A stretch of 47,463 nt of DNA, taken from Clostridia bacterium. Its GTDB lineage: Bacteria; Bacillota; Clostridia; Oscillospirales; CAG-272. Below the pieces are notes generated by a model. That model did not search any database. It saw only the letters and a program-made list of their open reading frames with translations, and was not told where the DNA came from. The position numbers and the translations under genes are program-made. The DNA lies in contig JAFWPR010000014.1 in the NCBI GenBank assembly GCA_017545225.1, forward strand, positions 1 to 47,463. Reading direction: 5' to 3'. Shown in pieces: positions 3,794 through 19,831 of the stretch (its first letter is position 1; the number at the start of each line of letters is the position of its first letter).

Positions 3794-3830
3794 AATCTTA
3801 CGAAAAGATTATTGACGTCTCTCCGTCAAT
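3794..3830. repeat. Two tandem small inverted repeats in a gene junction
   Basis: AATCTT-N5-AAGATT (3794-3810) lies next to ATTGACG-N6-CGTCAAT (3811-3830), which overlaps the stop codon of the VanY-like gene. Neither has a T tract, so they are more likely operator or mRNA-processing structures than terminators. The right palindrome also contains a TTGACG that could be a -35 element for the hydrolase gene. Confidence 0.4.
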
Positions 3831-4755
3831 TATACACCGAATCGATACCGAGATACTCCTCGAGCGTCAGTCCGCTGTCGCGGAGCGGGATCGAGAGCCA
3901 CGTTCCGACGAATCTGACGTGCCACGGCTCGTAGATGAATCCGGTCGACCACTCTTTGCCCTGAGGGTAACGGATGATGAATCCGTATTCCCAGCAGTGC
4001 GCCGCGAGCCACTGTCCTTCCGCGGTGTTTGCGAACGCCTGCGTCGTCGAGTTGACGTCGATCGCGAGACCCGTCTGGTGCTCGCTGTGGCCGGGACGCG
4101 CCGAGAACGTGTCCGCCGCCTCCCTGCCGTCGCGGTCAACGTACGTCTGGTAGAGCCACGACTGAAGCGAGTACGAGCGGTAGTCGGAGATCGAGTAAAA
4201 ACTCAGTCCCTCCGCCGCCGCAGCGGAACACATCGTGTAGAAAGCCGAAGCGCATTCGGGCGTCATCCCGCCCGGATCGTACCACGACGGAAGAGAGTAC
4301 GTTTTGTTGACTATGAGAAGACCGCCTATATACGTGCGCCCTTCCCTGACCTCGATCGGGAAACCCTTGCTCGTGTACCCTACGATCTCACCCGTCGCCG
4401 GAGGCGCGGTCTCGGGGACCGGATCAGGCACAGGGTCGGGCTCAGGTTCGGGATCGGGCTCCGGATACCATATCGGGTCGGGTTCCGGTTCGGGATCCGG
4501 CTCCGGGTCGGGAACCGGCTCCGGATCGGGCGCGGGCTCCGTTACAGGTTCCGTAACAGGCTCTGTTTCCGTTTCGGTTTCGGTTTCGGTTTCGGTTTCC
4601 GTCTCCGTTTCCGTCACGGGCTCCGTCTGCTTTTCGGCAGTCACGGTCGCCGACTCGGTACCCGTCGTCACGGCGGGCGCTTCCTTGTGGCATCCCGCAA
4701 GAAAGACAATTGCCGAAATTATTAAAAATACGGTCGCTGCTCTCATTACTTTCAT
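3826..4755 (-). CDS. D-alanyl-D-alanine carboxypeptidase lipoprotein (VanY type)
   Basis: A 309-residue lipoprotein that probably trims the terminal D-Ala from peptidoglycan stem peptides. The signal peptide ends in a lipobox LAGC with the lipidated cysteine at 22. Residues of about 45-118 are a low-complexity linker of Thr-Glu repeats and then Pro-Asp-Pro-Glu repeats, holding the enzyme away from the membrane. The C-terminal half has the VanY zinc motifs: SARPGHSEHQTGLAIDV (His and Asp ligands) and EPWHVRF (catalytic Glu and His ligand). The start has GAGGG eight bases upstream. It is cotranscribed with dus upstream (22-base gap). There is no vanHAX-type context, so a housekeeping wall role is more likely than glycopeptide resistance. 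Confidence 0.9.
   Translation of the reverse strand: MKVMRAATVFLIISAIVFLAGCHKEAPAVTTGTESATVTAEKQTEPVTETETETETETETETETEPVTEPVTEPAPDPEPVPDPEPDPEPEPDPIWYPEPDPEPEPDPVPDPVPETAPPATGEIVGYTSKGFPIEVREGRTYIGGLLIVNKTYSLPSWYDPGGMTPECASAFYTMCSAAAAEGLSFYSISDYRSYSLQSWLYQTYVDRDGREAADTFSARPGHSEHQTGLAIDVNSTTQAFANTAEGQWLAAHCWEYGFIIRYPQGKEWSTGFIYEPWHVRFVGTWLSIPLRDSGLTLEEYLGIDSVYN
4408..4620. repeat. In-frame low-complexity repeats encoding the TE/DPEP linker
   Basis: Hexanucleotide repeats (GGTTTC/GTTTCC, encoding Thr-Glu) cover about 4560-4612. A degenerate 6-bp Pro-Asp/Glu coding repeat covers about 4408-4550. Because the unit is a multiple of three, slippage would change linker length, not the reading frame. 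Confidence 0.8.
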
Positions 4756-10807: not shown

Positions 10808-10892
10808 TGGAAAAACGCAAAAAAAGACCGCGTGGGGCGCGTTTGTGACGCATATCCTGCGTTAATATATAGATATTTATATACTTTTAACA

Positions 10893-10921
10893 TTGCACGG
10901 AGCGGAAATAAGTGGTATAAT
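10893..10921 (+). promoter_or_regulatory. Strong sigma-A promoter of the lic/surface operon
   Basis: TTGCAC, 17 bases, TATAAT, with a TGG before the -10 (extended -10). It lies 50 bases upstream of the first gene of the operon and is the best promoter candidate for all six genes to luxS. Confidence 0.85.
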
Positions 10922-10957
10922 CTGTTTCGTGCACTGTGAATACGACGTTATTTCCGC
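10902..10957. promoter_or_regulatory. Operator-like inverted repeat spanning the lic promoter
   Basis: Perfect 10-bp arms GCGGAAATAA (10902-10911) and TTATTTCCGC (10948-10957). The left arm sits in the promoter spacer and the right arm just before the ribosome site. Shorter arms TGCACG/CGTGCA (10894-10899 and 10929-10934) are nested in the same region. Confidence 0.55.
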
Positions 10958-10970
10958 AAGAGGATAAAAA

Positions 10971-12203
10971 ATGCTTTCATATATCGATCCCGGAACGGGG
11001 AGCATGCTCTTCACCGTTCTGATAGGAATTCTCGGCGCCGCGGTCTACTCCGTGCGCGTCTTCATACTTAAAATGAAATCGCGCGTAGGCGGAGGCAGAG
11101 CGAAAAAAGGGAAGCGCGTTCCTCTCGCCGTTTTTTCCGACAACAAGCGCTATTTCTCCGTTTTCGATCCGATCCTGCGCGAGCTGTCCGCAAGAGGGCG
11201 GTCCGTTCTTTATCTCACGGCGTCCGAGGACGATCCCGCCCTCGAGTGCGGGTACGAAGGTCTTACGGCCGAATATATCGGCCCCGGCAACCGCGTCTTC
11301 ACGCGGCTCAACTCGCTCGACGCGGCGGTCGTTCTGTCGACGACGCCCGGACTCGACGTATATCAATGGAAGAGATCGCCTGAAGTCACCTTCTACGTTC
11401 ATATTCCTCACGCCGCAAGCGAGATCATCCTTTACCGCTCGTTCGGAATCGACTATTACGACGCGATCCTTCTGTCCGGCGAATATCAGGAAAAGGACGT
11501 CCGCGATTTGGAGAAACTCAGGGGTCTGCCCGAAAAAGAAATCAAGCTCATCGGCATCCCGTATATGGACGAGATGGCGGCTCGCCTTGAAAAAGAGGGC
11601 CCCGCCGATCCTCACGAGCGCACCGTCCTGCTCGCTCCGTCGTGGGGCAAGTCCGCCCTTTTCGGCGTTTACGGCGGGAAGATCATAGAGGATCTGCTCT
11701 CGACCGGCTATCACGTGATCGTCCGTCCCCATCCGCAGTCGTTCCAGTCGGAGACGGAGATGATCGAAGAACTGATGAAAAAATATCCGGAGTCGGACAA
11801 ACTCGAGTGGAACAGGGACAGGGACAATTTCGACGTCCTCAACCGCTCGGATATCCTCGTCTCCGATTTTTCGGGCGTCGTTTTCGACTTCACGCTGATC
11901 TTTGACAAGCCCGTGGTCTACACCGATCCCGACTTCGACCTCGCTCCGTACGACGCGTGGTGGCTCGACCGCCCGCTGTGGACGATGAGCGCGCTGCCTC
12001 GCCTCGGCGAAAAACTCACGCCGGAGGGAGAGGCGAATATGAAGGAACTCGTCGACCGGGTGCTTGAAGATCCGCGTTACGCGGAGGGCAGACGCGAGGT
12101 CAAGGCGGAAACGTGGGCCCATCCGTCCGAGGGCGCGCGCCTCGCCGCCGACTATCTTGAATCCAAGATCGAAGAGATCGAGGGGAAGGAGGAGTCGAAA
12201 TGA
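10971..12203 (+). CDS. CDP-glycerol glycerophosphotransferase-family protein with N-terminal membrane helix
   Basis: A 410-residue member of the teichoic acid TagB/TagF transferase family (GT-B fold). The N terminus has a YIDPGTGSM motif and one membrane helix (about residues 8-34), then a basic stretch. The C-terminal half has the family hallmarks: VLLAPSWGKSALF, VIVRPHPQS, and a SDILVSDFSGVVFDF segment that binds the CDP moiety. Known relatives move glycerol-phosphate or ribitol-phosphate from a CDP donor. Here the neighbours make CDP-choline, so CDP-choline is also a possible donor (inference). It is the first gene of the operon, and its stop overlaps the next start. Confidence 0.85.
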   Translation: MLSYIDPGTGSMLFTVLIGILGAAVYSVRVFILKMKSRVGGGRAKKGKRVPLAVFSDNKRYFSVFDPILRELSARGRSVLYLTASEDDPALECGYEGLTAEYIGPGNRVFTRLNSLDAAVVLSTTPGLDVYQWKRSPEVTFYVHIPHAASEIILYRSFGIDYYDAILLSGEYQEKDVRDLEKLRGLPEKEIKLIGIPYMDEMAARLEKEGPADPHERTVLLAPSWGKSALFGVYGGKIIEDLLSTGYHVIVRPHPQSFQSETEMIEELMKKYPESDKLEWNRDRDNFDVLNRSDILVSDFSGVVFDFTLIFDKPVVYTDPDFDLAPYDAWWLDRPLWTMSALPRLGEKLTPEGEANMKELVDRVLEDPRYAEGRREVKAETWAHPSEGARLAADYLESKIEEIEGKEESK

Positions 12204-14971
12204 GTTTCTGGTCGCTCGTCGAGACCTTCTTTATAGGTCCTCTGAAACTTCTCTTCGAGGTCATCTTCAACTACGCGCACGACCTCGTCCTGTCGCCGGG
12301 GCTCGCGATCATCTTTCTGTCCCTTGCGATGAATATCCTCATCCTGCCGCTTTACCGGCGCGCCGACGCGATGCAGGAAAAGGCGAGGGATACCGAGGCG
12401 GCTCTCAAGCCCGGCATCACCCATATCAAAAAAACGTTTTCGGGCAACGAGCGGATGATGATGCTCCAGACGTACTACCGTCAGAACAACTACTCTCCGA
12501 CGAACGCCCTGCGCGGATCTGTTTCGCTTCTGCTCGAGATCCCGTTCTTCATGGCGGCGTACCGCTTCCTGTCGACGCTCGAGATCCTCAAGGGCGTAAG
12601 CTTCGGCCCGATAGCGGACCTGTCCCGCCCCGACGGCCTTCTCACGATCGGCTCGCTGACGCTCAACCTGCTTCCGATCATAATGACGGTCATCAATTTC
12701 GTCTCCGCGGCGATCTATCTGCGCGGCTTCCCGCTCAAGACGAAGATCCAGCTGTACGGAATGGCCGTTTTCTTCCTTTTCTTCCTGTACTCTTCCCCGT
12801 CCGGCCTCGTCTTTTACTGGACGCTCAACAACGTTTTCTCGCTCGTCAAGAATATCTTTTACAAGATCCCGAAGCCGGGCAGGATCATATCCGTCATATC
12901 GGCTCTCGCCGGCGCGGCGTGCATCGTGACGTTTTTCAACGCGCAGCGGTTCGGCGTCCCGCAGATGAGGCGTCTTATCGTGCCGACGCTCGGTTTCGCC
13001 CTTCTGATCCCGCTGCTCGCGCGGCTGATCAGGTCGGTGCTCCCGAAAAAGGAAAAAAAGCGCGAGCCCGTCCCACACAGACCGGTCTTCATCCTTTCCG
13101 CCGTCTTTCTCACCGTGTTTGTCGGGGTGCTGATCCCGTCCGCGTACGTGGCGAGTTCCCCGCAGGAGTTCATCGACGTCTCGTATTTCTTCCATCCGCT
13201 TTGGTACGTCGCGCGTACAGGCGTGATGGCGGCGGGTACGTTCATCCTCTGGTTCGGAGTCTTCTACTGGCTCGCGAGTCCGCGCGGTAAAGTCGTGTTT
13301 GAGAGGATCATGGCGGCTTTCGCCGTCGTCGCCGCGGTCGACTATATGTTCTTCGGCACGAAGCTCGGCATCATCTCCTCGTCGCTCGTTTATGAGTCGG
13401 GTCTCCGCTTCGAAATATCCGAGATCCTGATCAACGCGGGCGTCCTGATCGCCGTCGCCGCTCTGGTCGTTTTGGCCGTTGCGAAATGGAAGAAAGCCGC
13501 GGGAGCGGTCCTTCTGGCGGGCTCGTTCGCCGTCGCCGTCATGGCGGGCGTCAATATCGTCACCGCCAAAAGCTCGATCGACGGTCTCGTCACTGAAGAG
13601 GGCGCGGAGATGCCCCACTTCACCCTGAGCCGCACCGGAAAGAACGTGGTCGTCATCATGCTCGACCGCGCGCTCGGAGATTTCTTCCCGTACCTCGTCG
13701 CCGAGAACCCGGAACTTGAAAAGAAATTCGACGGATTCACTTACTATTCGAACGTCATCTCCTTCGGCGGCCACACGAATATGGCGGTGCCCGCGATGCT
13801 CGGAGGATACGAATACACGCCGGTCGAACTGAACAAAAGAGACTCCGAACTCCTCGTGGACAAGCACAACGAGGCGCTCAAGGTGATGCCCGTCCTGTTC
13901 ATGAACGAGGGTTACGACGTCACCGTCTGCGACGCCCCGTACGCCAACTACGGCTGGATCCCTGATCTGTCGATCTACGACGAGTACCCGGAGATCTCGA
14001 AATACATCACTCTCGGTTATTTCGGAGAAAAGGAGAAAAAGCAGCAGGCGATCGACGCAGATCTGCGCAATTTCTTCTGCTTCTCACTCATGAAATCGCT
14101 TCCTCTCGCAACGGAGTACGCGGTATACGACCGCGGCGATTATCACTCGATGACGCTCAGCACGGAATCTGCCGAGCAGGAGGCGTATTCGATGTCCGTC
14201 GCCAAGGGCGAAAATCAGGCGTTCATCGAGCCTTACAACGTTCTGTGCAGTCTTGACAGGATGACGAAGGTGACGAAGGACGACCGCGGGACGTTCCTTT
14301 TCCTCAGCAACGACACCCCGCACGAGCCGATGCTTCTCAAGGAGCCGGAATACGTGCCGGCGCCGGAGATCGACAACACTGTCTTTGACAGCACGCATCA
14401 GTCGCGCTTCACTCTGAACGGCAGAACGCTCCACATCACGACGGTCAAGCAGATGGCTCACTACCAGACGAACATGGCGGCGCTGAACGCCGTCGGTGAA
14501 TGGCTCGACTATCTGCGCGCCGAGGGCGTTTACGACAACACGAGGATCATCATCGCGGGCGACCACGGATATTACCTGTTCACGACCGACGCCCTCAATC
14601 TCTCGGCCGAAGGGGTCAGGACCACGGACGCCGCAAACTTCTTCCCTCTCCTTTTAGTCAAGGATTTCGGCGAGACCGGTTTCAAGACGTCGGACGAGTT
14701 CATGACGAACGCCGACATCCCGACGATCGCCCTGGAGGGGCTCGTCGAGGATCCGCGCAACCCGTTCACCGGCAACCCGATCAACTCGGACGAGAAGACG
14801 GCGCACGACCAGTTCATCATGACTTATCACACCGGGTGGGACACGGCGAAGAACAACGGGACTCAGTTCCTGCCTACTCCTTGGGTCGCCGTGACCGACA
14901 ACATCTGGAACAGAGGCGACTGGGAATATATCGACGTTCCGACCGTGCTCACGGAACACAAGATACCTTGA
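12200..14971 (+). CDS. YidC/Oxa1-like membrane domain fused to LtaS/sulfatase-type phosphotransferase
   Basis: A 923-residue membrane protein. Residues 1-220 read as a YidC/Oxa1 insertase core: a first helix LAIIFLSLAMNILILPLY (35-52), a charged cytoplasmic hairpin (53-100), LLEIPFFMAAYRFL, and two hydrophobic hairpins ending FYWTLNNVFSLVKN. Residues 225-450 hold further membrane helices. From about 478 an alkaline-phosphatase-fold domain begins: VVVIMLDR (metal ligand D489), GGHTNMAVP (candidate nucleophile T526), NDTPHEP (H708) and IAGDHG (D788, H789). These match the metal and nucleophile positions of lipoteichoic acid synthase and phosphoethanolamine transferases. The frame is open and uninterrupted across the join, so the fusion is real in this sequence. 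It overlaps the upstream gene as ATGA. A role in making or modifying a lipid-linked teichoic-type polymer is likely. Confidence 0.85.
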   Translation: MSFWSLVETFFIGPLKLLFEVIFNYAHDLVLSPGLAIIFLSLAMNILILPLYRRADAMQEKARDTEAALKPGITHIKKTFSGNERMMMLQTYYRQNNYSPTNALRGSVSLLLEIPFFMAAYRFLSTLEILKGVSFGPIADLSRPDGLLTIGSLTLNLLPIIMTVINFVSAAIYLRGFPLKTKIQLYGMAVFFLFFLYSSPSGLVFYWTLNNVFSLVKNIFYKIPKPGRIISVISALAGAACIVTFFNAQRFGVPQMRRLIVPTLGFALLIPLLARLIRSVLPKKEKKREPVPHRPVFILSAVFLTVFVGVLIPSAYVASSPQEFIDVSYFFHPLWYVARTGVMAAGTFILWFGVFYWLASPRGKVVFERIMAAFAVVAAVDYMFFGTKLGIISSSLVYESGLRFEISEILINAGVLIAVAALVVLAVAKWKKAAGAVLLAGSFAVAVMAGVNIVTAKSSIDGLVTEEGAEMPHFTLSRTGKNVVVIMLDRALGDFFPYLVAENPELEKKFDGFTYYSNVISFGGHTNMAVPAMLGGYEYTPVELNKRDSELLVDKHNEALKVMPVLFMNEGYDVTVCDAPYANYGWIPDLSIYDEYPEISKYITLGYFGEKEKKQQAIDADLRNFFCFSLMKSLPLATEYAVYDRGDYHSMTLSTESAEQEAYSMSVAKGENQAFIEPYNVLCSLDRMTKVTKDDRGTFLFLSNDTPHEPMLLKEPEYVPAPEIDNTVFDSTHQSRFTLNGRTLHITTVKQMAHYQTNMAALNAVGEWLDYLRAEGVYDNTRIIIAGDHGYYLFTTDALNLSAEGVRTTDAANFFPLLLVKDFGETGFKTSDEFMTNADIPTIALEGLVEDPRNPFTGNPINSDEKTAHDQFIMTYHTGWDTAKNNGTQFLPTPWVAVTDNIWNRGDWEYIDVPTVLTEHKIP

Positions 14972-14980
14972 GGAAATAAC

Positions 14981-15862
14981 ATGAAATGTAAAGTTGACAA
15001 CGCCGTCATCATGGCGGCGGGCACGTCGAGCCGGTTCGCTCCGCTCTCGTACGAGCTGCCGAAGGCGCTGATCGAGGTCAGGGGCGAGGTGCTTATCGAA
15101 AGGCAGATCCGCCAGCTCAAAGAGGCGGGCGTGCCCGAGATCGCCGTCGTGACCGGATACCGGGCGGAGGATTTTTCATATCTTCGCGACAAGTTCGGAG
15201 TGAAGATCGTCCATAACCCCGACTATCTCACGCGGAACAACAACTCGACGATCCGCGCGGTGAGCGGACTGCTCAAAAACTCCTACGTCTGCTCCTCCGA
15301 CAACTATTTCACGGAAAATCCGTTCGAGGATGAGGTCGACGGCGCGTACTACGCCGCCGTCTACTCGGCGGGCGAAACGAAGGAGTGGTGCATGACGGAG
15401 GACAGTGACGACTTCATCGACTCGGTGACCGTCGGCGGCAAGGGCGCGTGGTATATGCTCGGCCACACGTTCTGGGACGAGAAGTTCACGCGGGGATTCC
15501 TCGCGATCCTCGACCGGATATACGGCGAGGAACGGACGGCGGGGCTCCTTTGGGAGTCGATATATATGGAACACCTCGACGAGCTGAAAATGAAGATACG
15601 CAAATACCGGGACGGCGAGATCTTCGAGTTCGACACGCTCGACGAGCTCCGTCTCTTCGACGAATCGTACGTCGGCGACACGCGCTCGCATATCCTGAAG
15701 GACTGCGCGCGGAGGCTCGGGTGCAAAGAAAGAGATATTACCGAGGTCACCGCTTTCAAGACCGGCGACAACGCCGCGGCCGGATTCCGCTTCACGGCGG
15801 ACGGCTCGCGCTTTGAATATGATTATGAAACAAAAACGTTAAAAGGAGTTGACAAAAAGTGA
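14981..15862 (+). CDS. licC: CTP:phosphocholine cytidylyltransferase-like nucleotidyltransferase
   Basis: A 293-residue nucleotidyltransferase that should make CDP-choline from CTP and phosphocholine. The N-terminal nucleotide loop is MAAGTSSRFAP (11-21), with the catalytic Lys at 28 in LPKALI. NNNSTIRAV (about 86-94) and SSDNYF (D107, metal ligand) match the LicC pattern. The last roughly 60 residues look like an added small domain. It follows the fusion gene by nine bases and overlaps licA. Identity is supported by adjacency to licA and licB. Confidence 0.9.
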   Translation: MKCKVDNAVIMAAGTSSRFAPLSYELPKALIEVRGEVLIERQIRQLKEAGVPEIAVVTGYRAEDFSYLRDKFGVKIVHNPDYLTRNNNSTIRAVSGLLKNSYVCSSDNYFTENPFEDEVDGAYYAAVYSAGETKEWCMTEDSDDFIDSVTVGGKGAWYMLGHTFWDEKFTRGFLAILDRIYGEERTAGLLWESIYMEHLDELKMKIRKYRDGEIFEFDTLDELRLFDESYVGDTRSHILKDCARRLGCKERDITEVTAFKTGDNAAAGFRFTADGSRFEYDYETKTLKGVDKK

Positions 15863-16755
15863 GAGAGATAGTAAAAGAAGACGTGCCGAAGATCGAAAAG
15901 CTGCTCTCGGACGTTCTCGGATCTGCGGAGTATTCCGCGATCGAGCGGCTCGGCGGGCTGACGAACCACACTTATCACGTTTCGATGAAAGACGGCGCGG
16001 AATACGTCGTAAGGATCCCCGGCGAAGGGACCGAGGAGATGATCGTCAGAGACGACGAGAGAAAGAGCACGGAACTCGCGTGCCGTCTCGGCGTCGACGC
16101 GAAAATGCTCTTTTTCGGCGAAGACGGAACGAAACTGACGGAATACATAAAGGACGCCGTCACGATGTCGGCGGAAGCGTTTCACGACGACCGCCGCGTA
16201 CGCCTCGCCGCGCAGATCTACCGCAGGATCCACGACTGTGGGGAGGACACCGGCGTTCCGTTCGAGGTCTTCGATATGGCTGCGAACTACGAAAAGATCA
16301 TCGCCGATCAGAACGTTCCGATGTTCGCGGACTACGGCGAACAGAAATCGCGCGTGATGAGGATAAAGGAAGAGATCGACCGCACGGTCGCGCCTAAGAA
16401 GGTCCCCTGCCACAACGACCCGCTCTGCGAAAACTGGGTCGAGAGCGGTGACCGCCTCTACCTCATCGACTGGGAATACGCCGGAATGAACGATGGGATG
16501 TGGGACGTCTCCGACGTCTCCATCGAGGCGGGCTTCGACAGCGAATGGGACAAAAAGCTCCTCACAGCATATCTCGGACGCGAGCCGTCGGTCGGCGATC
16601 TCCGCCACTTCCTCGCGAACAAGATCTACGTCGACTTCCTTTGGACTCTCTGGGCAAAGACGAGAGTTCCGTTCGACGGTCAGCCCATGGAGGACTGGGC
16701 GCAGGAGAGATACGCCCGCATGATCGAAAACATAAACGCCTTCGAGGCGCTTTGA
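15859..16755 (+). CDS. licA: Choline kinase
   Basis: A 298-residue choline/ethanolamine kinase-type phosphotransferase. Seen motifs are GGLTNHTY (32-39), RIPGEGTEEMI (52-62), the Brenner motif CHNDPLCENW with D187 as catalytic base and N192, and LIDWEYAG with metal ligand D204. The start is GTG at 15859, overlapping the licC stop as GTGA, with AAAAGGAG upstream. It phosphorylates imported choline to feed LicC. Confidence 0.93.
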   Translation: MREIVKEDVPKIEKLLSDVLGSAEYSAIERLGGLTNHTYHVSMKDGAEYVVRIPGEGTEEMIVRDDERKSTELACRLGVDAKMLFFGEDGTKLTEYIKDAVTMSAEAFHDDRRVRLAAQIYRRIHDCGEDTGVPFEVFDMAANYEKIIADQNVPMFADYGEQKSRVMRIKEEIDRTVAPKKVPCHNDPLCENWVESGDRLYLIDWEYAGMNDGMWDVSDVSIEAGFDSEWDKKLLTAYLGREPSVGDLRHFLANKIYVDFLWTLWAKTRVPFDGQPMEDWAQERYARMIENINAFEAL

Positions 16756-16776: not shown

Positions 16777-17802
16777 ATGTTTGCAGGTATTTTAGCAGGT
16801 ATCACGTGGGGGCTCGAAACGGTAGCCCTTAACAAAGCGTTCGACCTCAATCCGCTTGAATCAATGATCCTTGCGACTCTGATCACCGCGTTTATGCACG
16901 ACACTTTCTCCGCGATCTTCGCGTGGATCTACAACGGCGTACGCGGTAAGCTTCCCGAAATTTTCCGATCCCTTTTCAAAACGAAGAGCGGCAAATGGGT
17001 CGTCATCGCCGCGATAATCGGCGGACCCGTCGGAATGACCGGTTACGTCATGACCGTTCAGAACCTCGGCTACGCGATCGGCGCGGCGGCAAGCACCGTC
17101 TTCCCCGCTATCGGCGCCGTCCTCGCCTTCATCTTCCTGAAAGAAAAGATGAAATGGTATCAGTGGCTCTTCCTGCTTGCAACGCTCGCGGGAGTGTTCG
17201 GCCTCTTCTATTCGACGGATATCAAGGCTGAAAATATCCTTCTCGGCGTCATCGGCACGCTTCTCTGTTCCTTCGGATGGGGCATCGAGGCCGTCATTCT
17301 CGCAAAGTGCCTGCGCGACGGCGACGTTTCGGACGAAGGCGCTCTGATGATCCGTCAGACGACCTCCGCCGTCATCTACGGCGCGGCGGTACTCCCCGTT
17401 CTCAGCGTGATCCTGAAAGACAACGCATGGGGCCGCACCGTCGCTCTCTTTTCGAACACCGGATGGCTCGTCCCGGTCATCGTGATCGCCGGACAGTTCG
17501 CAACGGCGTCGTATCTGTTCTATTACAAGGCGATCGCAAAAATCGGCGCGTCGAAATCAATGGCTCTCAACGTCAGCTATGCTGCGTGGGCGATGATATT
17601 CGGCAATATCTACTTCCTTATCGATCCGACCTATTCTCAGAAAACCGAGATCACTTTCCTCACCGTTGTCTGCGCGATCGTCGTTCTCGTCTGCTCGATC
17701 TTCGCCGCGGCGGACTTCAAGGATATTTTCAAAAGGAATCCCGCTCCCGCAGTCGCAGAAGGCGGATCCGAACAGGCGGGACCGGAAGATAAAACGGAAT
17801 AA
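16777..17802 (+). CDS. licB: Choline permease, DMT superfamily
   Basis: A 341-residue integral membrane protein with about ten predicted helices in two repeats (EamA-type). The GGPVGMTGYVMTVQNLG and ASTVFPAIGAVLAF segments are typical of the LicB branch. The C-terminal tail is short, cytoplasmic and acidic. Placement directly after licA (21-base gap, AAGGAG site) supports choline uptake as the function. Confidence 0.88.
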   Translation: MFAGILAGITWGLETVALNKAFDLNPLESMILATLITAFMHDTFSAIFAWIYNGVRGKLPEIFRSLFKTKSGKWVVIAAIIGGPVGMTGYVMTVQNLGYAIGAAASTVFPAIGAVLAFIFLKEKMKWYQWLFLLATLAGVFGLFYSTDIKAENILLGVIGTLLCSFGWGIEAVILAKCLRDGDVSDEGALMIRQTTSAVIYGAAVLPVLSVILKDNAWGRTVALFSNTGWLVPVIVIAGQFATASYLFYYKAIAKIGASKSMALNVSYAAWAMIFGNIYFLIDPTYSQKTEITFLTVVCAIVVLVCSIFAAADFKDIFKRNPAPAVAEGGSEQAGPEDKTE

Positions 17803-17833: not shown

Positions 17834-18358
17834 ATGAAAATGATCGAGAGTTTTTCCGTCGATCACACGAAGATCGTCCCCGGAATTTTCGTTAGCCGGG
17901 CGGACAAGGTCGGCGGCGGCGCCGTCACCACTTACGATATCAGGCTTAAAAGGCCGAACGTCGAGCCGGCGATCGACGCGGCGGCGATGCACTCGCTCGA
18001 GCATCTCATCGCCACGACGCTCAGGAACGATCCCGAAAACAAGGACGACGTTGTCTACTGGGGTCCGATGGGATGCCTGACGGGGTTTTACCTGATCCTC
18101 AAGGGCGTCCGTCCTTCGAGGGATATCTACGGTCTCGTGCTTAACGCCTTCAGGTCGGTGGGGGACGCGGCGGAAGTCCCCGGGACCGCGCCGGAAAACT
18201 GCGGAAACTGTCTTCTTCACGATCTCGAAGGAGCGAAGCGGTACGCCGCGGAGTTCGTCTCCTACCTCGAGGCGCACGCCGACGATCCCGCGATCTTCGA
18301 ATATCCGAAGACGGACCGTCCGCTAACCGAAGACGGCAGAAATTTTTACGATTCGTGA
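17834..18358 (+). CDS. luxS: S-ribosylhomocysteine lyase (LuxS)
   Basis: A 174-residue LuxS that cleaves S-ribosylhomocysteine to homocysteine and the AI-2 precursor DPD. The zinc site is H53 and H57 in HSLEH with C123 in NCGNC; the catalytic Cys is C81 in GPMGCLTGFY. The family normally has GCRTGFY, so the Arg is replaced by Leu. It is slightly longer than the usual 150-160 residues because of a C-terminal extension. It lies 31 bases after licB with AGGGAG and no terminator in between, so it is probably the last gene of the choline operon. The terminator follows eight bases after the stop. Confidence 0.95.
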   Translation: MKMIESFSVDHTKIVPGIFVSRADKVGGGAVTTYDIRLKRPNVEPAIDAAAMHSLEHLIATTLRNDPENKDDVVYWGPMGCLTGFYLILKGVRPSRDIYGLVLNAFRSVGDAAEVPGTAPENCGNCLLHDLEGAKRYAAEFVSYLEAHADDPAIFEYPKTDRPLTEDGRNFYDS

Positions 18359-18365
18359 TCATATA

Positions 18366-18400
18366 AAAAGCCCTCGCGACGTGACGTCGCGAGGGCTTTT
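18366..18400. terminator. Bidirectional terminator between luxS and the SLH esterase
   Basis: A 12-bp GC-rich stem (AGCCCTCGCGAC with its complement) around a short loop, flanked by A5 on the left and T6 on the right. It can end transcription from both converging genes. Confidence 0.92.
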
Positions 18401-18411
18401 TTCGTTATTGT

Positions 18412-19731
18412 TTAACCCTGCGGTTTGGAATGCAGTAGCATCCACGCGTAAACCTCGGGATCGGAATAGACCTGATCCCAGTTGCCGTGGCCTACGCCCT
18501 CGAACGGCGTCAGCTTCGCGTCGGTCCCGCCCGCCTCCTTGATGGCGTTTACGATGTTTACGGAGTAGTAGAATGGGACGGCTTTGTCTTCGGTTCCGTG
18601 GAACGCCCAGATCGGGACGTCGACGAGTCTTGACGCAAGCTGTTTGAGTTTTGCAGCACGTTCAGGGGTATCGTTCTCGCCGATTTTCTCATTTCCGCCG
18701 CCGCCGCAGATCGGCACCGCCGCAGCAAAAGTCTCGGGAGACCTCGACGCCAAAAACCACGTCCCTTCTCCGCCGAGGCTCGTTCCCATCAGATAAACGC
18801 GCGACTCGTCGACCTCGGGAGTCGACGCTATATCGGTGATCATGCTGATCAGCGTTTTATAGTAGGAGATCCATCCCGACATGTCGTCGAGATTAGGCGT
18901 GAGCGTGATGAACGGGTATTCGCTCACATCGAGCTTCGCGATCTCGGTGAAAAACGAGTTCGATGTGAGATATTCGTCGATCCCCGCGCCGACAGATCCC
19001 GAACCGTGCAAGAAGACGAGGAGAGGATACTTCTCGCCCGCTTTGAAACCGTCGGGATAGAGGACCGCGTAGGGCATTCCCTTCGTTTCGCCCTTTATGA
19101 CCGTCGGGGCTTTTTCTCTGTACGAATCGAATCTCTGAAGGATAGCCGCGAGCTGTTCCCTCGTCGCGTTGCTGCCGGGTTCCACGGTCGTTTCGGTCAC
19201 CCCCTTGACGAGGCCGGAGCAGACCGCCCACGAGAGCGCGGTTTTCGCCCAGTCGCTGACGGACTTTTTATCCTTGAAGCCGTCGAGATCAGCCCTGCCC
19301 GTCACTCCGTAGGCCTTGAAGCCGGAATAGCGGTAGAACATCGTCGCGAGCTGTTCGCGGGTGATAACGCCGTCCGGGTCGAAACTCGTCGCGGAAACGC
19401 CGAGCACTACGCCCGCGTCCTTCGCCCAGATCACGGGGACCGAGTACCACTCGTTCGCGGGTACGTCCCCGAAATCGGCCCGGTACGCCGTATCGGGCGA
19501 GCCTTCCATACGCCACAGAACGGTGACGACCATAGCGCGCGTCGTCGTTCCCTGCGGATCGAAATATCCGCCTCCGACGCCTTTGAGATAGCCGTGCCCG
19601 ACGGCGTAGTCGATGTACTCGCAGCTCCAGTCGAGCGGGGACACGTCGCGGAAGGAACCGCCGCCCGCCGCCGCGGGAATCGCCGCGGAGATCATAACGA
19701 GGACGATGAGTAAAGAAACGACTTTTTTCAT
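18412..19731 (-). CDS. S-layer-anchored esterase (three SLH domains plus alpha/beta hydrolase)
   Basis: A 439-residue secreted protein. A signal peptide (1-22, ending IPAAA) is followed by three SLH repeats (about 25-200): FRDVSPLDW, FGDVPANEWY and FKDKKSVSDW each begin one, each ending in a TRxxL/V segment. From about 215 a polyhydroxybutyrate-depolymerase/PlPro-like esterase domain has FLHGSG (oxyanion region), GTSLGGEG (nucleophile Ser), HGTEDKAVPF (Asp) and GVGHGNW (His). It should be bound to the cell wall through SLH domains and hydrolyse an ester, perhaps an acylated or feruloylated polysaccharide. The ATG at 19731 gives a clean signal peptide and has GGAGAGG upstream. Confidence 0.88.
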   Translation of the reverse strand: MKKVVSLLIVLVMISAAIPAAAGGGSFRDVSPLDWSCEYIDYAVGHGYLKGVGGGYFDPQGTTTRAMVVTVLWRMEGSPDTAYRADFGDVPANEWYSVPVIWAKDAGVVLGVSATSFDPDGVITREQLATMFYRYSGFKAYGVTGRADLDGFKDKKSVSDWAKTALSWAVCSGLVKGVTETTVEPGSNATREQLAAILQRFDSYREKAPTVIKGETKGMPYAVLYPDGFKAGEKYPLLVFLHGSGSVGAGIDEYLTSNSFFTEIAKLDVSEYPFITLTPNLDDMSGWISYYKTLISMITDIASTPEVDESRVYLMGTSLGGEGTWFLASRSPETFAAAVPICGGGGNEKIGENDTPERAAKLKQLASRLVDVPIWAFHGTEDKAVPFYYSVNIVNAIKEAGGTDAKLTPFEGVGHGNWDQVYSDPEVYAWMLLHSKPQG

Positions 19732-19765
19732 AATTAAAATGCCTCTCCCTATATTGTTCAAAATC

Positions 19766-19795
19766 ATTATATCACACATCCGATCAAAAAAACAA
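19766..19795 (-). promoter_or_regulatory. Promoter of the SLH esterase gene
   Basis: Minus strand TTGTTT, 18 bases, TATAAT with a TGA before the -10 (extended -10), 35 bases upstream of the start codon. Confidence 0.7.
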
Positions 19796-19805
19796 GAGCG
19801 ACATA

Positions 19806-19831
19806 AGCGGTCGGGCATGAGTCCGACCGCT
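19806..19831. terminator. Hairpin after alaS
   Basis: Perfect 9-bp stem AGCGGTCGG/CCGACCGCT with an 8-base loop, ten bases after the alaS stop. Its long T tract is on the plus strand; on the minus (alaS) strand the T run begins about ten bases later, so efficiency in the alaS direction is uncertain. Confidence 0.6.

Follow-up and report, generated by a model that had tools for sequence, protein, structure and literature searches.

A gene in a stretch of 47,463 nucleotides from a Clostridia bacterium (contig JAFWPR010000014.1 of assembly GCA_017545225.1, forward strand; hereafter the window) encodes a YidC/Oxa1-type membrane domain joined to an alkaline-phosphatase-fold outer domain, a protein we call the YidC-AP fusion. 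It is preceded by the gene of a TagF-like transferase and followed by lic-type genes. The TagF-like enzyme, the YidC-like domain and the outer enzyme very probably form one module. We also propose that the three act as a single machine, with loading by the TagF-like enzyme, crossing by the YidC domain and transfer to a surface glycan by the outer domain, a reading in which our confidence falls just short of even. In its broadest form, an Oxa1/YidC-superfamily domain would have been turned into a dedicated headgroup-lipid flippase, fused separately to either partner, in a third, LicD-free route that puts phosphocholine and kindred zwitterionic groups on bacterial surfaces; this is possible, and we put it forward with slightly more reserve.

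An earlier reading of the same DNA, made from its letters without database searches (the sequence-only reading), had described one uninterrupted frame, which is borne out: the frame encodes 923 residues, and both domains lie above their Pfam cut-offs. The 60KD_IMP family matches residues 34–221 (E 5.8e-26, 91.8 bits, cut-off 35), the Sulfatase family matches with E 1.4e-10 (41.5 bits, cut-off 25), and the NCBIfam model yidC_oxa1_cterm (TIGR03592) scores 88.3 bits against a cut-off of 84.3. The AlphaFold2 model of the whole protein, computed from 94 relatives, has a mean predicted local distance difference test (pLDDT) score of 91.7 and a predicted template-modeling score of 0.86. Residues 1–220, previously assigned to an Oxa1 fold, match Bacillus halodurans YidC (3wo7_A) in this model; Foldseek places it at rank 49 (E 1.2e-5, template-modeling score 0.68 over the target, root-mean-square deviation 3.9), with outer domains of the LtaP/LtaS/YejM/MCR-1/sulfatase kind in the ranks above. 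The YidC part is modeled with helices at residues 13–30, 33–79, 82–95, 100–125, 157–173, 179–196 and 201–220, and loop charges place its C1 hairpin inside the cell and the catalytic domain outside. Because five further helices stand between the YidC part and the outer domain, the predicted layout is an LtaS/YejM-style helix set with the YidC domain as an addition.

The fusion is no single-protein oddity; it is a family, paired with a TagF-like transferase, whose YidC domain is elsewhere fused to such a transferase. A genome scan with the whole fusion as query, which finds separate halves less readily, matched 192 stretches, from which 123 relatives were confirmed and 80 loci kept, whose titles indicate rumen and gut Clostridia for the most part, together with three Treponema; with the window these make the 81 loci counted below. 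Both halves, each covered to at least 70%, are present in 99 of the 106 related open reading frames (ORFs) of these loci. The other seven comprise six frames cut by contig ends and one broken frame (L034), and the frame of L055, among the 99, also appears broken near its end. A protein search scored 7997 candidates, 4978 of them at E <0.001; of these, 120 relatives were listed, all with the YidC label and 97 also with the sulfatase label (counted by hand from the table), so that the domain pair recurs as a family. The alignment of 94 relatives consists of the window protein, 75 ORFs of the scanned loci and 18 proteins taken from the 120 listed, and the five candidate catalytic residues picked out from the sequence alone (D489, T526, H708, D788 and H789) hold in it without exception. 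More than one copy of the fusion occurs in 18 of the 81 loci. Scored on the YidC match, the genome of L061 (G011, Ruminococcaceae YRB3002) carries nine frames of 876–934 residues and one cut frame with a fusion-kind YidC match, together with several TagF-like genes, and that of L073 carries eight such frames of 873–941 residues; the multiple copies in the L061 genome suggest diversified headgroups or acceptors. At L068 (3-13573), five YidC-AP genes follow one another, the first cut by the contig end.

By curated sequence cut-offs and a predicted five-helix fold with a cytosolic C1 hairpin, both of which it has in common with B. halodurans YidC2 (3wo7) and E. coli YidC, the fusion belongs to the YidC/Oxa1 superfamily, and it shares the Tyr-Trp and Asn of transmembrane helix 5 (TM5) with YidC2. 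It differs from the insertases in being joined to a catalytic outer domain, in forming its own tree group, in the Asn at the groove-arginine column and in being kept alongside a separate YidC, which was present in 16 of 18 relatives searched and in the window genome. The YidC part is the most conserved region of the family (TM5 0.86, TM2 0.82 and TM1 0.80, against 0.61 for the outer domain), and N45, T163, N166, N210, N211 and K217 are fixed or near-fixed polar residues of its helices. The positive groove charge that solved YidCs carry in TM1 is absent; Asn45 takes that column in 92 of the 94 relatives. Ordinary YidCs of these genomes vary in the same column (four Arg, three Lys, three Glu, five Tyr and two Asn in 17 rows), and the window genome's other YidC (L001:1435-2601), which adjoins a jag-looking gene, has Glu there. 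In a tree of 32 of the 94 fusion rows and 18 other YidC rows, 17 ordinary and one from the YidC-TagF protein described below, a 100/100 branch sets the fusion rows apart as a group of their own. The fusion is ordinary neither as a YidC nor, as shown further on, as an LtaS.

The gene upstream encodes the TagF-like partner, whose stop codon overlaps the fusion's ATG by four bases. PF04464 (Glyphos_transf) matches this protein with 43.7 bits (cut-off 22.1). Its AlphaFold2 model (pLDDT 88.9) has TagF 3l7k_D as best Foldseek match (E 9.7e-13), a match tied in Z score with UDP-N-acetylglucosamine 2-epimerases. A TagF-like gene lies on the same strand within 300 base pairs of the fusion in 68 of the 81 loci; a second pairing rule, applied to mechanically set ORF starts, found pairs in 65 loci, 58 with the gene upstream (44 of them separated by -4 to +5 bases) and 12 with it downstream. 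The GT-B fold, the TagF match, His144, His147 and the R-P-H-P motif (all three invariant in the TagF-like family) and the nearly invariant S-D-F-S motif are likenesses to the cytidine diphosphate (CDP)-alditol phosphotransferases TagF, TarL and Cps3D. Unlike these, the window partner is short, begins with a membrane-type helix and accompanies a YidC; it is the only PF04464 match found in the window genome, which in addition gave no match to a CDP-glycerol enzyme. The latter negative refers to glycerol-3-phosphate cytidylyltransferase (TagD; TIGR01518) in a genome 86.6% complete; CDP-ribitol enzymes were not searched. In six Lachnospiraceae loci (L045, L046, L047, L057, L058 and L077), the TagF-like and fusion genes stand in one conserved order without lic genes, flanked, by eye, by ftsX- and protease-like genes on one side and uvrB/uvrA-like genes on the other.

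The main reason to treat the TagF-like enzyme, the YidC-like domain and the outer enzyme as one machine is that they occur repeatedly, alongside headgroup genes, in two covalent layouts. A YidC search in the genomes of 18 loci returned a 719-residue protein joining YidC to a TagF-like domain. This YidC-TagF family accounts for 3656 of 7997 scored candidates at E <0.001, with both Pfam labels in 110 of 120 listed (hand count), and the TagF part of its L130 member matches the window TagF-like protein (28% over 374 residues, E 2e-42). The YidC of YidC-TagF (row L114) groups with ordinary YidCs; because it lies across the 100/100 branch from the fusion group, a separate fusion event is suggested for YidC-TagF, with the caveat that it is the only YidC-TagF row and the longest in a tree for which the program warns of long branches meeting. 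A search of 50 genomes, which cover 50 of the 80 loci, found YidC-TagF in five (G022, G058, G012, G042 and G039). Just upstream, four of these five encode a separate outer-domain enzyme, adjacent in L161, L162 and L164 and with a 167-residue ORF between in L130. All four separate enzymes keep the equivalents of D489, T526, H708, D788 and H789. The outer-domain profile of the fusion, with E-values computed for a set of six sequences, matches them at E 4.6e-14 to 1.3e-18, against 0.009 and no match for two LtaS-like proteins of the window genome; pairwise with the fusion, the L130 enzyme reaches E 8e-9, against 0.03 and 1.5 for the same two proteins. Headgroup import or activation genes stand at four of the five loci: LicB in L161; in L164, a LicC-LicA protein and a match to the LicC profile; in L130, a winged-helix (helix-turn-helix) LicC-like protein and a transporter similar to PhnS2/T2/U2, a putative aminoethylphosphonate system, though below that system's cut-offs; and an NTP-transferase/aminotransferase in L163. 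Judged from sequence, then, the YidC domain is joined to one or the other of two enzymes from the same module. The YidC-TagF protein of L163 (7478-9943; 821 residues) has about 200 extra residues ahead of its YidC part, and at L161 a 526-residue protein without a Pfam match follows LicB (10836-12416).

Downstream of the fusion, the choline operon proposed by the sequence-only reading holds up, with LicC, LicA and LicB each assigned by solved relatives (Table 1). The LicC-like protein matches the nucleotidyl transferase/aminotransferase 6pd1 only at E 6.9e-7; for the LicA-like kinase, a slightly better match is 3dxq (E 6e-46), a choline/ethanolamine kinase family protein, and LicB is the sole match of the permease. 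LicA, LicB and LicC in one operon is the arrangement of the Lic-1 pathway of pneumococcus and Haemophilus. The window departs from that pathway in that its genome (86.6% complete) gave no LicD match and in that the operon has a TagF-like gene and YidC-AP instead; LicD was likewise without a match in 13 of 18 lic-type relatives searched, genomes whose completeness is not established. In pneumococcus, LicD and the flippase TacF complete the route (PMC13385700; PMC10434233). Across the 81 loci, counting genes on the same strand within the flank retrieved, the LicC profile matches in 39, LicA in 29 and LicB in 13. Four of the inspected genomes without a local LicC encode a LicC-LicA protein elsewhere (L089, L090, L092 and L095). 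Single proteins combining a winged helix, LicC and LicA occur at five loci, perhaps as sensors of choline or of compounds made from it. In L037 a comparable gene has a BCCT transporter nearby, and inspection by eye places one in L089, L090, L092 and L095 as well. At six loci, near the fusions, an NTP-transferase is joined to a class I/II aminotransferase domain that is threonine-phosphate-decarboxylase-like where tested; such proteins might convert a phospho-amino acid into CDP-ethanolamine or a related compound. Away from its fusion locus, the L081 genome (Treponema) encodes a PntC-type NTP-transferase/class V aminotransferase. PntC/aminoethylphosphonate tailoring clusters likewise use cytidine triphosphate (CTP) activation of a small zwitterionic surface group, and their later tailoring is called enigmatic (PMC6697681); here, by contrast, candidate membrane steps can be named.

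In the mechanism that we propose, CDP-choline would be the donor from which the TagF-like enzyme charges a membrane lipid with phosphocholine on the cytosolic side. The YidC-type domain would then allow passage of this phosphocholine lipid to the outer leaflet, where the outer domain would take phosphocholine onto Thr526 and hand it to a surface glycan. Contact between the parts, CDP-choline as donor, a lipid as acceptor, lipid movement by YidC and transfer rather than hydrolysis are what we infer here. E. coli YidC, Oxa1 and Get1 act as lipid scramblases between leaflets in liposomes, according to a preprint (PMC10491306), and LtaS, with phosphatidylglycerol as donor, provides a chemical precedent (PMC4192460). 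Other loci carry activation genes predicted to be of phosphoethanolamine or aminoethylphosphonate type, so that in relatives this arrangement would accommodate other small zwitterionic headgroups. The earlier suggestion that the YidC part serves a lipid-linked polymer or hydrophobic substrate stands and, if anything, gains support, at the level of a conjectured mechanism.

Several observations weigh against this mechanism. Its steps are predictions, and scrambling by YidC in vitro may be uninformative on specificity. The partner-swap neighborhood comprises five loci, one of which (L163) lacks a detected outer enzyme and another (L162) a headgroup gene, with only a weak match there resembling a sugar nucleotidyltransferase; the L162 outer enzyme also falls under the Pfam sulfatase cut-off (16.3 against 25 bits). 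A LicC-profile match on the same strand within the flank is absent in 42 of the 81 loci, and the profile may also catch other nucleotidyltransferases. LicD is present in 5 of the 18 lic-type relatives, and absences from a genome 86.6% complete are weak indications. Three MOP-type flippase matches in the window genome, two above cut-off, make another carrier available. Phosphatidylglycerol could be the donor of the outer enzyme, as in LtaS, because PgsA is the best match of the only CDP-alcohol phosphatidyltransferase found in the window genome. LtaS, EptC, YejM, phosphonate monoester hydrolase and choline sulfatase, transferases and hydrolases alike, cannot be told apart by fold score, so that a hydrolase activity is possible. 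The Asn at the groove site carries little weight in either direction, for the mechanism or for superfamily membership, as the variation among ordinary YidCs indicates.

The sequence-only reading had called the outer domain an LtaS-like phosphotransferase, and a related alternative is that it transfers glycerol phosphate from phosphatidylglycerol in the LtaS manner; inside the cell, the TagF-like enzyme would add phosphocholine to a lipid-linked glycan, and the role of the YidC domain would be confined to guiding or holding the chain. The fold part of that description stands: the fusion shares with LtaS and LtaP the alkaline-phosphatase fold, a candidate Thr nucleophile, a candidate Asp-His metal pair and five helices ahead of the domain; LtaS and LtaP are among its best fold matches, and PgsA as sole enzyme of its kind would suit such a donor. 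The LtaS-specific part does not. The third metal ligand of Listeria monocytogenes LtaS is Glu-263 (PMC4192460), whereas all 94 relatives have Asp489, placed by motif, at that position. The S-x-N-H motif of the second LtaS glycerol-phosphate site occurs in none of the 94, by an ungapped position count from Asp788, and residues 575–600, where the phosphate-binding Arg-362 of LtaS was placed by eye, contain no conserved Arg. With the NCBIfam LtaS equivalog model the fusion reaches 13.7 bits, where the cut-off is 970. LtaS-like proteins are encoded elsewhere in the window genome, which has four other sulfatase matches in total, and pairwise similarity of the fusion to two of them is nil or nearly so. 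With an added YidC domain besides, the fusion appears, by the defining features of LtaS, not to be an LtaS and to resemble it in fold only, and we regard an LtaS-type transferase as unlikely, if worth keeping in view. The outer-domain fold is equally that of EptC, MCR-1 and YejM, and PptA is kin to it. We know of no YidC domain or TagF-like partner in EptA/EptC/MCR-1, YejM/PbgA or PptA. The PptA route uses a phosphocholine lipid as donor (PMC10434233), as proposed for the module; unlike the module, PptA acts on pilin.

It is quite unlikely that the YidC domain carries a phosphocholine glycan on undecaprenyl pyrophosphate, doing the job of TacF, with the outer domain ligating or trimming the product. 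Pneumococcal TacF moves the phosphocholine-decorated repeating unit (PMC13385700), and no TacF-like flippase was found among the scanned operon products. Against this stand the MOP-type matches elsewhere in the window genome and an operon without glycan-assembly genes. The YidC groove, moreover, is small.

The match above a curated cut-off is what an insertase or chaperone would show, and specialized YidC paralogues are kept by many organisms; the domain might act so on its own protein or on the membrane-anchored TagF-like partner, without lipid transport. We consider this distinctly unlikely in view of two families that retain a YidC in covalent linkage to a specific enzyme, of one type or the other, a YidC part more conserved here than the catalytic domain, and the separate YidCs of these genomes. 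Removal of headgroups from lipids or polymers for choline recycling, with the outer domain as a hydrolase, is very improbable: phosphonate monoester hydrolase and choline sulfatase are its top structural matches, with Z scores near those of the transferases, but the five helices ahead of the domain and the frequent pairing with a biosynthetic-type transferase and CTP-activation genes favor synthesis. An assembly or frame artefact fusing two genes, for which nothing was found beyond the draft state of the genome, is refuted, to near certainty, by the 99 joined ORFs among 106 and by the joined layout among the 120 listed relatives.

The choline operon could end at the terminator-like hairpin beyond luxS (Table 1), which has the longest stem of 13 such sites found in the region, where 8.9 were expected. 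Elsewhere in the window, a VanY-type carboxypeptidase (3826-4755, minus strand) has an extended Thr-Glu and Pro-Asp/Glu region close to its start, and a protein at 18412-19818 (minus strand) combines three S-layer homology stretches with a hydrolase/esterase-type domain.

Table 1. Coordinates of the module and its neighbors in the window and, where a locus is named, in that locus.
Feature	Position	Strand	Basis
TagF-like transferase of GT-B fold, 410 residues, conserved YIDPGTGS motif in N-terminal helix; predicted to be cytosolic and to use the CDP-activated headgroup	10971..12203	+	PF04464, model, Foldseek
YidC-AP fusion gene	12200..14971	+	single uninterrupted ATG frame
YidC/Oxa1-type domain, residues 1-225, five membrane helices and cytosolic C1 hairpin	12200..12874	+	profiles, AlphaFold2 model, Foldseek, conservation
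Asn45 codon, column of YidC groove arginine	12332..12334	+	alignment
Linking helix pair, residues 226-280, poorly conserved	12875..13039	+	AlphaFold2 model, conservation
Five predicted membrane helices, residues about 291-461, at place of LtaS/YejM five-helix region	13070..13582	+	model, fold comparison
Alkaline-phosphatase-fold outer domain, residues 478-923, predicted phosphotransferase	13631..14968	+	Pfam, fold comparison
Asp489 codon, candidate metal ligand, invariant 94/94	13664..13666	+	alignment
Thr526 codon, candidate nucleophile, invariant 94/94	13775..13777	+	alignment
His708 codon, invariant 94/94	14321..14323	+	alignment
Asp788 and His789 codons, candidate metal ligands, invariant 94/94	14561..14566	+	alignment
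LicC-like CTP:phosphocholine cytidylyltransferase	14981..15862	+	S. pneumoniae LicC 1jyk, E 2.8e-39, best solved relative
LicA-like choline kinase	15859..16755	+	PF01633 65.2 bits; choline kinase 4r77 E 1.3e-40
LicB-like choline permease	16777..17802	+	LicB 7b0k E 2.9e-25
luxS after licB; module link unproven	17834..18358	+	PF02664 168 bits
Terminator-like hairpin, 17 pairs	18365..18401	+	longest stem of 13 sites
Outer enzyme and YidC-TagF loci	L130:6239-11103, L161:5770-9657, L162:4925-9217, L164:5645-9619		
Winged-helix, LicC and LicA in single proteins	L023:384-2156, L089:1747-3543, L090:11709-13487, L092:1688-3502, L095:1551-3326		
NTP-transferase with class I/II aminotransferase	L033:4857-6704, L041:4868-6739, L029:1642-3471, L059:4930-6735, L091:7083-8885, L163:10230-12041		

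Lipid scrambling by YidC/Oxa1 proteins is known from liposomes, and a YidC tied to lipid-headgroup enzymes makes a cellular role directly testable. Phosphocholine is recognized by host immunity. If correct, the proposed route would explain how many gut and rumen Clostridia could display phosphocholine in the absence of LicD, besides assigning a function to proteins named in some sources only ‘YidC/Oxa1 family membrane protein insertase’.

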